Part shown: positions 58,131 through 64,000 of the stretch, in pieces
Position numbering within the stretch: position 1 is the first letter of the stretch
How the letters are laid out: every line of letters starts with the position of its first letter
Assembly (NCBI GenBank): GCA_013995675.1
Contig: VWRR01000007.1
Span: 186,001 to 250,000 of the forward strand
Source of the DNA: Cyanidiococcus yangmingshanensis
Lineage: Eukaryota > Rhodophyta > Bangiophyceae > Cyanidiales > Cyanidiaceae
DNA: 64,000 bases
Direction: 5' to 3'
Position numbers and translations under genes: made by a program
The notes under the pieces: generated by a model
Databases searched by the model: none
What the model was told of the DNA's origin: nothing
What the model saw: only the letters and a program-made list of their open reading frames with translations

Positions 58131-59089
58131 CGACCAGCGCGATGTCGATCCTGCCGGGACTGCTACAGCACCGACCCCACGAGCACAATCTGCGGTGCTC
58201 GTAAGGTGCCCTTTTCGTCCTCAAAACTAGAAGCAGGCAATAGCAATGGATCATGTGGTGTGTTTCCAACTGGTCCTGCAATCAAAATACTTGATGAATG
58301 ATGATAGACATCCTGTTGGCAACACACCGGCCTTGATTCATGCAGCGAGCGCCTGCGAAGGATGCGAACCGTGATGGTGTCAGGGATCGGTATCACAGCG
58401 AATCACCCTTGATCATGCAGTGGTTCGTCTGTTGGCGGTCCGAGGTATCGACTGGAGGCATCGGAACGAGCGTTTCCAGCACGTGCCGTGACATTCGATG
58501 GCATGGAGACCAGCATGTATCCCTTGGCGCAGAGCGACGCTTTTTGCCCTGCCACAAGGACACGTGTCCGATACGATGCCGCTGAACACAACAAGGATGA
58601 TCGTCGGCTTCATCGTGTTCAAAAGGAACTTGGACAGGTGTTGTGCACACATATGCATCGGAACAAGCATTTGGACGTCTTGTTTCCTTATGCTTCAGAT
58701 AATTGGTATATGCATAGAGATAGAGGTTTTGTTTCCTTACACTTCAGATAATTGGTATATGCATAGAGATAGAGGTTTTGTTTCCTTACACTTCAGATAA
58801 TTGGTATATGCATAGAGATAGAGGTCTTGTTTCCTTACACTTCGGATAATTGGTATATGCATAGACACGGGCGCGATCCCATGGCGACATGCCAACAGAT
58901 AATCATTGCTGCTTGGAAAGCTCGCACGGTAGATGCAGACACGCACTCCCGGGAAAGTAAAGCAGATGAACGTTAGGCTGCGGCTGAACTGTTTCAGCGC
59001 TGGTGAGAAAGCTTGGAAGGTGTGATCTTTTTAAGCACTCAAGACGAGCTCGTGAAGGTCTCACGCAGACCTTGCGCTTTGAGTACTAC
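58131..59089. other. Divergent intergenic region
   Basis: Shared upstream region of GlnRS and the DHHC gene; contains the 49-bp tandem repeat listed separately. The DHHC frame is open from 59003 but without ATG until 59090. Confidence 0.4.
58681..58865. repeat. 49-bp tandem repeat, 3.8 copies
   Basis: Copies begin at 58681, 58730, 58779 and 58828; the last ends early near 58865. Each contains GATAATTGGTATATGCATAG. The copies differ at only a few positions (TATGCTTC/TACACTTC, GGTTT/GGTCT, CAG/CGG). It is AT-rich compared with its surroundings and lies about 225 bp before the DHHC ATG and 550 bp before the GlnRS ATG. Confidence 0.95.
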
Positions 59090-60235
59090 ATGCGTGAGGG
59101 CACGGGGCGACGTTTCCCACGCTGCGGTTTGTCGACGCTTCGACATCTCTGGAATAGTCGCATCGATAACATCAGAATGGGTCGAGTGCAGTCGGGCGAT
59201 CGATCGTCTTCTTTTGAATATATAGGTGACGATCGAGTCACTGGAACAGAGCAGGCACTGGACTTGCTGGCTTGTGCGAGCGCGGTCTGTACGAGGCATC
59301 TGGGTCCACTCTTTGTATTTTTTGCTATGGCACTCATTGGTCTGATTGTGTTCACTTATTTTAGATACATGTTGCCGGCGCTTTACCAAATAGCTGCCTC
59401 GAGTGCGCATACCACGCGCACTCGAGTCGCTGTTTCGGTGCACTTGGCTGCATCCATGCATCTCCTTTTCTGTGTCTTGTATAGTTATCTGAGGACTGTG
59501 TGCACGAACCCAGGGTCGCCGCCGCTCGCAGCAGCGAACCAATCATGTCAACCGAGTAGGCCTTCCTGGTTCGAAAACGAGGATGCGTCGGCGTGTCGGT
59601 CTCAGGAGCGCGGTTGGCCCGTCTGTAGTCGCTGTGGTTGTTGGCGACCACCGCGGACACATCATTGCTCCGTATGTCGTCGTTGCGTTCTGCATATGGA
59701 TCATCATTGTATTTGGATGAATGCCTGCGTGGGCTATTACAACTACGGGTCGTTTTTGTCAACACTCTACTTTCTTGTCCTCGGAGCAACAGATACGGTC
59801 GGGACAGTTCTTTACATTTGGATGCGAGCGCCATCTCGATCGGAGCTTCGATCGAACATTTGGGTACTCTATTCGTTCGTGCTAGCTCTATGTCTCGGGC
59901 TGGCGCTTTTCGCATTGCTCGCTTTTCACGCTTGGATTTTATCCTTGGGCCTCTCAACGATCGATTATTTGGCAGGACACCCAAGTGAGCTTACGTCAAC
60001 TGCTAACTTCGAACCGACGTCGACAAGGATCGATTTGGAAAAGCCAACGCCAACCGTCGACGGATATTCCACGTCTGGCCGAAAACTCAGTCGTTGGCGC
60101 TGCTTTCGAGCAAATGCGCGGGCACTTTTTGGCCGCCACCAACCTTTATGGCGATTCCTGGTTTTACCGTCATTCACTCGCCGACTAGGAGACCCATATG
60201 AATATCGACCGGATCAGTTGAGGCAAGTCGTCTGA
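59090..60235 (+). CDS. DHHC-type protein S-acyltransferase
   Basis: Attaches palmitate to cysteines of target proteins at cell membranes. Two hydrophobic segments (LFVFFAMALIGLIVFTYF and AASMHLLFCVLYSYL) come before the Cys-rich domain CSRCGCWRPPRTHHCSVCRRC, VLHMDHHCIWMNACVGYYNY, which contains the catalytic DHHC. Two more segments follow (FLSTLYFLVLGATDTVGTVLY and VLALCLGLALFALLAFHAWIL). A TTxE/DHHC-family TPG-like motif precedes the domain (CTNPGSPP). The frame is open from 59003, but the first ATG is 59090; another at 59177 (MGRVQSGD) would also keep the whole domain. The coding region holds an 11-bp perfect inverted repeat at 59398-59426. Confidence 0.94.
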   Translation: MREGTGRRFPRCGLSTLRHLWNSRIDNIRMGRVQSGDRSSSFEYIGDDRVTGTEQALDLLACASAVCTRHLGPLFVFFAMALIGLIVFTYFRYMLPALYQIAASSAHTTRTRVAVSVHLAASMHLLFCVLYSYLRTVCTNPGSPPLAAANQSCQPSRPSWFENEDASACRSQERGWPVCSRCGCWRPPRTHHCSVCRRCVLHMDHHCIWMNACVGYYNYGSFLSTLYFLVLGATDTVGTVLYIWMRAPSRSELRSNIWVLYSFVLALCLGLALFALLAFHAWILSLGLSTIDYLAGHPSELTSTANFEPTSTRIDLEKPTPTVDGYSTSGRKLSRWRCFRANARALFGRHQPLWRFLVLPSFTRRLGDPYEYRPDQLRQVV

Positions 60236-61464: not shown

Positions 61465-63177
61465 TTACTCCTCCCCCTCCTCCATTGAAACGTTCACCTG
61501 CACGAGCTCAATGTCGAATATAAGTAGCGCGTTCTTGGGGAGCATTTGGCCAAACATATCCGACATACCCTCGCATCGTTCTGGATGAATGTAAACAGTA
61601 CGGGCCTCTCCCTCGTGCATATCAAGAATAACCTTTTTCAGGGCGGGTGGAGCATCGCCTACTCGCATGGTAATGGGATTCACCATCTCCCCATTTTCGT
61701 CGGAAGGGCAAGTGAAAAAGAAACGACCATCCAGCAAACGGCCCTGCAACACCATCATCACGTTGACTTGTTCATCTTGGCATTTCTTGCGCAATTCCTT
61801 GCCCGCCTCTGCCTTGTCAGCGTTTTCAGCATCGTCCACCTCCTCCCAGACCAACCGATCCGGTTCCAGGACACTGAATAGCTCTGGCATGTTTTTCGCC
61901 GTCTCGAAAAAGGCCTCGGCTTCTTGCAGATTCAGCTCCCCGACAACATCATTCGCAATGCCCTGCAAAACACCCATCTGCCTCTCATACTTGGCGATAT
62001 TCACAGGAAATTCCTTGCCAGCCAGGGCATCACGAAACCCCTGAATAACCAACTCGTGATCCAATCCGAATCCTGAATTCAACAACGCTTGGCCCAAAGC
62101 AAAACCGTATCCTAGAGACAGTTCGTCCAGGTTCAGGCCCTGATCCTGCGCAAGCTCACGGGTACGTTCATCACGCAAACGGGCACTTGTTTTCGCTGGA
62201 TTCTCTGCCTCCGCATCATCATCATCATCATCATCATCCATAGCAGTCAAGAAATTTTTTGAAGCGCTTGTGGAGCGGTCTGCATCCTTTCGACTGTTGC
62301 TGGTCGTTGAGGTGCCAGCGGCCGTCAACCTCGAGACGCCTTGTGACTGCGCGGACGATTCGCCTGTCGCGTGAACAAGACCCTGTTGCGCAAACAGTTC
62401 TTTGGCTGCACGCATTGACTCTGCCCATTTCCTTGGATCTTCTACGACTTCACGGAACTGTGGATCCGCATCCATCCATTGGCGCAGAAACGGATTATTC
62501 AGTAGCGCCTGCCGCGACTCCTCCTGTTTCTCCTCCGATGACAGGTAATCCTGCATCGCTGGCGAGTCCCAGAGGCCACCCATCATCTGAGTCATCTGTT
62601 GCAACCAGTTCATGGCGTCGGTTTGGTCATCGCCACCACTGCCGCCGACACCACTCCTATTTCCGGCGAGGAGCGACTGTAAAAGTGCGGTCGGGTCGCC
62701 GGTGGCAGGGTTCGCTCCACCGGCGCGCCCTCCTCGGCCACCAGAGCCAGCGCTCAGACCACGAAGCTGTCGAGCAAGCGCCTCAACATCAGCCAGCCCC
62801 GCTCTAGAACCTGCACCACTGGCTTGTGCGCCAGCGCTCGAGCTCACACGCGAAGCGCGTTGCTCCGCCGCACTGCCTCCAGCGCTTTTCGTTATCCTGT
62901 TGGTTGTGAGCCCGCCGTCTGAACCTGAACCAGACCGAACATTGCGAACGACACTCATCGTCAGTTCCGTTTGCGTTTCATCGATTCCGTAACCAGCGAG
63001 CGTCTGCTGCGGATCGTCAAGCACTTGGCCGCGAAACATGAGCAACTGATTCGAGGTGGGTATGCCTGCACCTTTTTCCACCTCATTCTGAATCTCTGAA
63101 ACAGAAGTGTGCACCCCTTGATGGGGCACTACACTGATCTTTTTCCCATTGAAGCAACGAACCTGCAGCGTAAGCAT
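61465..63177 (-). CDS. Ubiquitin-like / STI1 / FKBP-type PPIase fusion protein
   Basis: A 570-residue protein from the first ATG (MLTLQVRCFNGKKISV). Residues 1-75 are a ubiquitin-like domain (LLMFRGQVLDDPQQTLAGYGI). A Gly/Ser/Ala-rich linker leads to an STI1-like segment near 205-260 (NNPFLRQWMDADPQFREVVEDP), as in ubiquilins. After an Asp run (DDDDDDDD) comes a Mip/FkpA-like dimerisation region (LSLGYGFALGQALLNSGFGL, VIQGFRDALAGKEF, AEAFFETAKN). The C-terminal FKBP prolyl-isomerase domain follows (GRLLDGRFFFTCP, LKKVILDMHEGEARTVYIHPE, LPKNALLIFDIEL). The parts suggest a proteasome-shuttle or folding factor for misfolded or membrane proteins in the cytosol. I know of no family with this order. 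The frame is unbroken, so the fusion is not an assembly join between two genes. Confidence 0.9.
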   Translation of the reverse strand: MLTLQVRCFNGKKISVVPHQGVHTSVSEIQNEVEKGAGIPTSNQLLMFRGQVLDDPQQTLAGYGIDETQTELTMSVVRNVRSGSGSDGGLTTNRITKSAGGSAAEQRASRVSSSAGAQASGAGSRAGLADVEALARQLRGLSAGSGGRGGRAGGANPATGDPTALLQSLLAGNRSGVGGSGGDDQTDAMNWLQQMTQMMGGLWDSPAMQDYLSSEEKQEESRQALLNNPFLRQWMDADPQFREVVEDPRKWAESMRAAKELFAQQGLVHATGESSAQSQGVSRLTAAGTSTTSNSRKDADRSTSASKNFLTAMDDDDDDDDAEAENPAKTSARLRDERTRELAQDQGLNLDELSLGYGFALGQALLNSGFGLDHELVIQGFRDALAGKEFPVNIAKYERQMGVLQGIANDVVGELNLQEAEAFFETAKNMPELFSVLEPDRLVWEEVDDAENADKAEAGKELRKKCQDEQVNVMMVLQGRLLDGRFFFTCPSDENGEMVNPITMRVGDAPPALKKVILDMHEGEARTVYIHPERCEGMSDMFGQMLPKNALLIFDIELVQVNVSMEEGEE

Positions 63178-64000
63178 CCCGGTCAAAATGGTGGTGCAGA
63201 AAGCAGTACGGTCGTTCACGACTCAGTCGCTTCGCCTTGTCGACTGGTTGAGTCGCCAACGTCTCAAGACGCCGACGGCGATCCACGCTGTGAGCGACCG
63301 CAGCCTTGTACGATCATATACAAGAATATTCAGAAAGCAACCATGATGTCCAGGTAGAGATTGATGCGGACACGCGGGCCATCCTTCATGGGATTCGCTG
63401 GACTGGTCCCGGAACAGCCTTGTACGATCAGATACAAGAATATTCAGAAAGCAACCATGATGTCCAGGTAGAGATTGATGCGGACACGCGGGCCATCCTT
63501 CATGGGATTCGCTGGACTGGTCCCGGAACAGCCTTGTACGATCAGATACAAGAATATTCAGAAAGCAACCATGATGTCCAGGTAGAGATTGATGCGGACA
63601 CGCGGGCCATCCTTCATGGGATTCGCTGGACTGGCCGTTCAGCGAGTCCATGAACAGCGTATTCAGGGACCGGGCAGCCATTCCAGACGCAATGATGAAC
63701 CATATCGAGTGGCGGGTTCGATCTCGCGTGTCCATTTCCTAGCGTCTGTCCTTCAAGCGGAAACAGGATGCGACACCATCGGCCAGATCAACACCGAGAA
63801 AGATAGTTGCAAATATAGACTCCGAATCGCCCTGGTGATCATCAAAGATATTTGTCAACTTTTATCCATTGGAAAGGATGTGATTCGTACTTGAGCACTC
63901 GTTGATACGAGTTCGTTCGAAAAGAGCCGTCTAATTCCGTCTATCGACGCGCAATGGGATACTGCAGCATGCATCACCTCCAGCACCTCGAATGCTTCGC
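63178..64000. other. Region upstream of the UBL-FKBP gene to the window end
   Basis: Holds the 114-bp repeat listed separately. Beyond 63650 nothing is recognised. Confidence 0.4.
63304..63635. repeat. 114-bp tandem repeat, about 2.9 copies
   Basis: Copies begin at 63304, 63418 and 63532. They are nearly identical: the first has GATCATATAC where the others have GATCAGATAC, and the last diverges after GCTGGACTGG. The unit is 38 codons long, so frames stay open on both strands through all copies. The array begins about 127 bp upstream of the UBL-FKBP ATG, in its likely promoter. Confidence 0.96.

Follow-up and report, generated by a model that had tools for sequence, protein, structure and literature searches.

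The described systems closest to the protein analysed here are the ubiquilins, including Dsk2, and the Mip-type FKBPs of bacteria. UBQLN1 deprived of its ubiquitin-associated domain (UBA) binds the proteasome constitutively, the UBA normally being bound to the ubiquitin-like domain (UBL) of the same molecule (PMC4942676). The solved STI1 domain of Dsk2 has six helices and a methionine-rich groove, and in the crystal two STI1 domains are stacked head to head around two transmembrane segments, an arrangement that in solution depends on the segment (PMC13083928). Here, we describe a gene of the red alga Cyanidiococcus yangmingshanensis (order Cyanidiales) that lies on the minus strand of a 64,000-nucleotide stretch of contig VWRR01000007.1 ("the window"; positions 186001-250000 of contig C18 in our numbering of the 12.07 Mb, 20-contig genome that we searched). 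Its product joins a UBL and an STI1 domain to a Mip-type FKBP module; the same architecture is conserved across red algae, has no UBA match, and ends in an FKBP domain with an eroded pocket whose affinities are chlamydial. We propose, with a probability of about 0.5, that this protein is a dimeric, UBA-free quality-control adaptor of red algae that combines the N-terminal half of a ubiquilin with an FKBP module of Mip type akin to those of chlamydiae.

The gene occupies window positions 61465..63177 and is a single open frame running from an ATG at 63177 to a stop at 61465, encoding 570 amino acids; an earlier note on this DNA, made from the letters alone, had already remarked that the frame is continuous. 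Upstream of the ATG another 14 codons remain open, as far as a GTG at 63219. We favour the ATG as the start, since six of the seven relatives from our first homologue search begin at the same position or at most one residue away (P0006 is truncated), although longer starts are predicted for P0020 and P0057. A hypothetical protein from a C. yangmingshanensis assembly (CCYA_CCYA06G1797, here P0002; 569 amino acids) is 99% identical to the window protein.

From its N terminus, the protein comprises a UBL (residues 1-80; 62938..63177), a low-complexity Gly/Ala/Ser linker (residues 81-184; 62626..62937), a methionine-rich STI1 domain with six predicted helices (residues 187-266; 62380..62619), a variable linker with a run of aspartates (residues 267-326; 62200..62379), a Mip-type helical region with a long connecting helix, FKBP_N (residues 327-446; 61840..62199), and an FKBP_C domain (residues 469-563; 61489..61773), all on the minus strand. 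Pfam matches above the family cut-offs place the ubiquitin domain at residues 5-68 (29.8 bits, cut-off 25.4), FKBP_N at 351-430 (24.3 bits, cut-off 22) and FKBP_C at 472-559 (32.1 bits, cut-off 21.1), and a ten-row profile of the STI1 region matches ubiquilin STI1 by hhalign with a probability of 96.7 (expect value, E, 4e-10). Methionine makes up 8.2% of the STI1 domain across the family and 4.2% of the whole proteins (65 rows). The linkers were recognised by poor conservation and by the structural model, and the aspartate run of the second by repeat analysis: it is coded by a CAT repeat at 62214-62238 (plus strand) and differs between P0001 and P0002.

A single-chain AlphaFold2 model built on 68 aligned rows (a model built on 8 rows was poor, with a mean predicted local distance difference test score, pLDDT, of 55.6) contains four folded parts, with connecting linkers of pLDDT below 50. 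Ten-residue mean pLDDT is 83-88 in the UBL, mostly 70-84 in STI1, 78-89 in FKBP_N and mostly 80-91 in FKBP_C, where two loops are near 60. In this model STI1 is made of six helices spanning residues 187-270, and the FKBP_N helices lie at 327-345, 350-368, 374-385 and 394-428. The best PDB fold matches of the C-terminal module include Mip, PaFkbA and FkpA, with the match extending over the full-length fold. The PDB fold lists consist of FKBP and ubiquitin folds, and the absence of an STI1 structure among the rows listed carries no weight.

To define the family we used a profile of the domain pieces only (A2), which recovered 73 proteins at E<=0.01. Sixty-eight of these, the window protein included, were kept; the five excluded are two paralogues without a UBL (P0069 and P0070), two ubiquilins with a UBA (P0071 and P0073) and a bacterial protein (P0072). 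The first two homologue searches had returned the same 8 proteins, with low-complexity linker words probably filling the candidate list; each search scored about 8,000 candidates, a depth that does not establish absence outside red algae. The family ends at E 3e-47 (P0068), and is followed by the two UBL-less, red-algal-type paralogues (5e-38 and 3e-32) and then by ubiquilins and one bacterial FKBP at 4e-10 and weaker. Domains are at least 80% filled for the UBL in 59 of the 68 members, for STI1 in 65, for FKBP_N in 67 and for FKBP_C in 66; Pfam matches at E<=0.01 number 66 for FKBP_C, 65 for FKBP_N, 64 for UBQLN1 and 60 for ubiquitin, and none of the 12 Pfam families that the 68 members match at this threshold is UBA. 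Nine members without a filled UBL are short (230-451 amino acids), and may be fragments. The order UBL, STI1, FKBP_N, FKBP_C, the missing UBA and the Mip/FkpA-like character of the C-terminal module, all read by the earlier note from the window alone, thus hold for the family, the Pfam matches and the model. The search for the same order in other red algae, which the note had suggested, also found it. The 10 members whose entries give a species name or an indicative label are all red algae: C. yangmingshanensis, Gracilariopsis chorda, Gracilaria domingensis, Agarophyton chilense, Porphyridium purpureum, Timspurckia oligopyrenoides, taxid 708628 (Erythrolobus madagascarensis), Galdieria sulphuraria, G. 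partita and P0061, whose label "Galph1" probably denotes another Galdieria. The taxonomy of nine of the 10 was checked, and all nine are in Rhodophyta.

The eight proteins of the first search share the four domains but not the linkers: comparison with P0007 gives identities of 46/80 in the UBL, 63/82 in STI1, 82/119 in FKBP_N and 68/98 in FKBP_C, and, for the two long linkers, of 35/99 and 7/47. Domains that are kept while linkers drift indicate that the joined protein is under selection and did not arise by chance. Four members (P0018, P0020, P0039 and P0040) have transcript-assembly labels, which we take to denote transcripts, and all four match ubiquitin, UBQLN1 and FKBP_C in one protein, arguing at the level of the family against the two separate genes that the earlier note had named as a refutation. 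The paralogues P0069 (Porphyra umbilicalis) and P0070 are of Mip type, with FKBP_N and FKBP_C matches (both under the Pfam cut-offs in P0069) and no Pfam match to UBL or STI1; they fall with the red family in a quick tree, on long branches, and are possible sources or split-off copies of the FKBP module. Single family members are already public, under database names that include "Peptidyl-prolyl cis-trans isomerase Mip" and "Ubiquitin". Among the matches listed in the open-access literature there is no account of a UBL-STI1-FKBP protein, in keeping with the note, which knew of no described family with this order. A scan of viral contigs, using patterns from the window protein only, returned no relatives.

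The note had also suggested that the fusion links prolyl isomerisation to the proteasome, which the FKBP_C domain makes doubtful. We compared the family with FKBP12 at the residues that bind rapamycin (PMC5114585), a comparison that speaks of pocket residues and not of catalysis itself. In the 68-row alignment, the rest being gaps, Tyr26 is replaced in all 67 rows (Val 43, Leu 21, Ile 3), Ile56 is Pro in 67/67, Tyr82 is Glu in 42 and Asp in 19 (61/66, with five others), Trp59 is Leu in 66/67 (Ala in one), and Phe46 is Leu in 62 and Ile in five; Phe36 and Phe99 are retained, as Phe in 67 and 66 rows, respectively. By contrast, the 61 bacterial rows retain Tyr26 in 61, Ile56 in 57 and Tyr82 in 59, which places these three losses on the red-algal side. 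Phe46 is uninformative, being Phe in 1/61 bacterial rows. At the Trp59 place, 31 of 38 other bacteria have Trp but 22 of the 23 rows of a chlamydial type (defined by the tree described below) have Phe, and the residue after Phe36 is Asp in 36/38 of the former and 4/23 of the latter, with Phe or Tyr in red rows. Pocket erosion therefore seems to have started within the chlamydial-type lineage and to have advanced much more in red algae. To control the alignment, 8 other FKBP domains from the same genome, out of 13 matches, were examined, and three of them (L001-L003), judged by eye, keep Tyr26, Phe36, Asp37, Trp59 and Tyr82. Since chlamydial Mip is reported to be active, the absence of Trp59 and Asp37 would not by itself prove inactivity, and the case is made by Tyr26, Ile56 and Tyr82. 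The eroded pocket contains conserved new residues (RLLDGR, FFTCP, YVHP and MFGD). On this evidence, the isomerase pocket looks largely lost.

To look for bacterial relatives we ran two patterns conserved in the family, NALLIFD among them, against 84,980 prokaryote species and confirmed 12 loci. The five best (L025-L029; E 8e-23 to 1e-14) include four titled Chlamydiae, Chlamydiia or Clavichlamydia and a metagenome-assembled genome (MAG) titled "bacterium" (L026), which the tree places in the chlamydial group. Lower-ranked loci come from Spirochaetes, from Capnocytophaga (where, by eye, the frame opens like a cyclophilin), from a Fibrobacteria MAG and from one titled Planctomicrobium. The 12 loci match residues of the FKBP module only, which speaks against a carrier of the whole fusion among the prokaryotes scanned. 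An FKBP_N protein is present in 47/50 genomes of Chlamydiota, 17/41 of Bacteroidota and 11/40 of Planctomycetota. Bacterial rows for phylogeny were picked by the two family patterns or by best FKBP_N score, an uneven sampling of five phyla, Escherichia coli and one bacterium lacking a lineage title. After removal of five long-branch rows (L098, L090, L033, P0069 and P0070) present in a quick tree, the careful tree had 81 rows and 222 columns: 20 red rows (of the 68 members, including P0066), 23 of chlamydial type and 38 others. Red rows fall on one side with support 100/100 and chlamydial-type rows with 92/84, and the two together are separated from the 38 others with 100/99; the tree has no root, and the group of red and chlamydial rows was named only once the first tree had been viewed. 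The same split is obtained in quick trees from FKBP_N columns alone and from FKBP_C columns alone (99 for each, by the Shimodaira-Hasegawa-like approximate likelihood ratio test). Pro391 and Leu546 are each found in 20/20 red rows, 23/23 chlamydial-type rows and 0/38 others, the last having Ile at the Leu546 position in 38/38; His531 is common to red and chlamydial-type rows, yet is also present in 8/32 other bacteria.

Of the phyla sampled, chlamydiae thus apparently have the nearest relatives of the FKBP module, in their Mip-type proteins; with a root among the other bacteria, red rows would be sister to chlamydial rows and not inside them. The pattern is consistent with gain of the gene from a chlamydial relative. 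The chlamydial relatives start with signal-like stretches (by eye), and the window protein starts with a UBL fold in the model. Several Chlamydiota genomes have two FKBP_N genes (L053-L058 as against L025-L029 and L059-L076); the six FklB-like copies, L053-L058, group with other bacteria, apart from red algae. We tentatively suggest a history, possible but well short of even odds, in which the ancestor of red algae joined a Mip gene from a chlamydial relative to the UBL-STI1 half of a ubiquilin, creating a dimeric, ubiquitin-independent proteasome adaptor whose isomerase pocket was re-used for clients, and which has persisted to the present alongside the normal ubiquilin.

Proteasome receptors read the hydrophobic Ile44-patch residues of a UBL. 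Alignment with ubiquitin from the same genome assigns Phe, Met and Val of the window protein to the places of ubiquitin Leu8, Ile44 and Val70, and across the family these places are Phe in 58/59, Leu or Met in 60/60 and Val in 58/61, residues that would be compatible with proteasome binding. The C-terminal Gly-Gly needed for conjugation is absent, and columns 78-83 are RR(V/I)GK-like in most members. The same genome encodes a Dsk2-like UBL-UBQLN1 frame (C7:66578-67402) with a UBA nearby in another frame (C7:68094-68198), which we read as one gene with an intron, a Rad23-like gene (UBL and UBA) and, named by eye, a USP14-like frame near a UBL. The presence of Dsk2-like UBL-UBQLN1 and UBA sequences rules out replacement of Dsk2 by the fusion protein, which, given these three genes, probably works beside the usual shuttles and not instead of them. 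The gene under study is the only FKBP_N match in the genome. A 446-residue frame elsewhere in the genome (L012 808-2148; UBA match at G000:C19:538778-538876) has a UBA flanked by a thioredoxin-like start and a UBX-like end, the last two recognised by eye only, and is seemingly another ubiquitin-system fusion. The earlier note missed the occurrence of the family across red algae, the coexisting Dsk2-like gene and the chlamydial affinity of the FKBP module.

We propose that the Mip-type helices make the protein a dimer; dimerisation through these N-terminal helices is plausible, judging by the model. The STI1 groove, perhaps closed by the STI1 domain of the partner, would hold exposed hydrophobic or transmembrane segments, and by keeping two STI1 domains close, the dimer could favour a closed cavity like that of the Dsk2 crystal. 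The FKBP folds would serve as extra binding cradles and not as prolyl isomerases, with the new conserved residues adding surface. The UBL would dock the load on the 26S proteasome. Since UBQLN1 without its UBA is constitutively proteasome-bound, a natural UBL-STI1 protein that has no UBA should behave alike, binding the proteasome without waiting for client ubiquitin. The dimer, the loss of catalysis, the type of client, proteasome docking and the direction of transfer are all steps that we infer.

Several observations weigh against the adaptor we propose. In the window protein alone, the STI1/UBQLN1 match (residues 200-261) is under the Pfam cut-off (17.7 versus 27), and a search of the PDB with the STI1 profile gave only a weak match to Ddi1 (E 0.097). 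Phe at the Leu8 place, together with Thr at the Arg42 place in most members (53/60), means that the partner of the UBL may not be the proteasome. P0066 (235 amino acids; transcript label "type:complete") has FKBP_N and FKBP_C only, so a form without a UBL may exist. Residual isomerase activity is conceivable, as the chlamydial-type group, without Trp59 and mostly without Asp37, has a Mip reported to be active; moreover, an acidic residue after the insertion in the red proteins (Asp493 in 65/67, Glu in 2) offers an alternative match to Asp37, a place made ambiguous by that insertion. Lastly, the red branch is long (1.56 changes per column) and the branch that unites the red with the chlamydial rows is short (0.16); the comparison covered red algae, five bacterial phyla, E. 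coli and one further bacterium, and the direction and timing of transfer would be a matter of interpretation.

The alternative that survives best, although we consider it unlikely, is that the protein is a chaperone for the targeting and triage of membrane proteins, its UBL binding chaperone factors and not mainly the proteasome, with the Mip dimer and STI1 shielding precursors en route to the endoplasmic reticulum, mitochondrion or plastid. A parallel exists in systems of the BAG6-SGTA type, in which a UBL binds other chaperone factors. A role independent of client ubiquitin fits the missing UBA, a Dsk2-like gene is available for the classical job, transmembrane segments are ligands of STI1 domains (PMC13083928), and mitochondrial precursors are among the clients that ubiquilins chaperone (PMC4942676); set against this are the hydrophobic residues retained at the Ile44-patch places of the UBL. 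Considerably more doubtful is the model of the earlier note, a working prolyl isomerase that is brought to the proteasome or chaperones or acts together with them, since it would have to function with the places of Tyr26, Ile56, Tyr82 and Trp59 replaced throughout the family, the first three of which nearly all bacterial rows retain. We regard as just as improbable, if not slightly more so, a ubiquitin-independent scaffold, in which UBL-STI1 brings degradation or condensate machinery to one fixed partner that the FKBP cradle recognises, with no general chaperoning: the strongly conserved new pocket residues are as expected for a specific binding surface, but the fixed partner is purely hypothetical, and STI1 domains are known for broad client binding (PMC13083928). 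A misassembly, chance fusion or gene-prediction fusion of two genes, for which one can say that the transcript evidence comes from relatives and not from the window gene, is effectively ruled out by the same frame in a second assembly, the 68-member family with the same parts, its full-length transcript-labelled members and the conservation of domains relative to linkers.

If the adaptor we propose is real, red algae have a second ubiquilin-like adaptor, without a UBA and using a bacterial chaperone fold; client choice and proteasome delivery could then be joined without the reading of ubiquitin, and a bacterial FKBP would have been recruited into a core eukaryotic degradation system. The family would be a natural test of the role of the UBA in ubiquilins, and could show whether STI1, when forced to dimerise, is better at holding transmembrane segments. 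Cyanidioschyzon merolae, a red alga described as genetically tractable, would be a practical test system if the gene is present there.

Just upstream of the gene start, window positions 63301-63634 contain 2.9 copies of a 114-base unit (99% matches), and a search of the genome with this unit returned these copies only. A neighbouring frame at 59003-60235 (plus strand) has, by eye, the look of a DHHC palmitoyltransferase.

The red-algal protein is ubiquilin-like in plan, but is no ubiquilin by membership. It shares with ubiquilin and Dsk2 an N-terminal UBL, a disordered linker and a methionine-rich STI1 domain; unlike them, the family has no UBA match (0/68) and has Mip-type FKBP_N and FKBP_C in its place, a single STI1 region was found, and the protein coexists with a Dsk2-like gene. 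Its UBL differs from ubiquitin and processed UBL modifiers in having no Gly-Gly end. With the bacterial FKBPs Mip, FkpA and FklB it shares FKBP_N helices followed by FKBP_C and a full-length fold match, and it groups with chlamydial-type Mip; it differs in being fused behind UBL-STI1 and in having lost the equivalents of Tyr26, Ile56 and Tyr82, so that the fold is Mip-like without the canonical pocket. The Mip-type paralogues P0069 and P0070 share FKBP_N and FKBP_C with the family, but have no Pfam UBL or STI1 match and lie on long branches. Lastly, cyclophilins of the PPIL2/Cyp60 type, which carry a U-box, also join a peptidyl-prolyl isomerase fold to a ubiquitin-system domain, but both the isomerase family and the ubiquitin-system domain are different, and those proteins are of E3 type, whereas the red-algal fusion would be a UBL adaptor.
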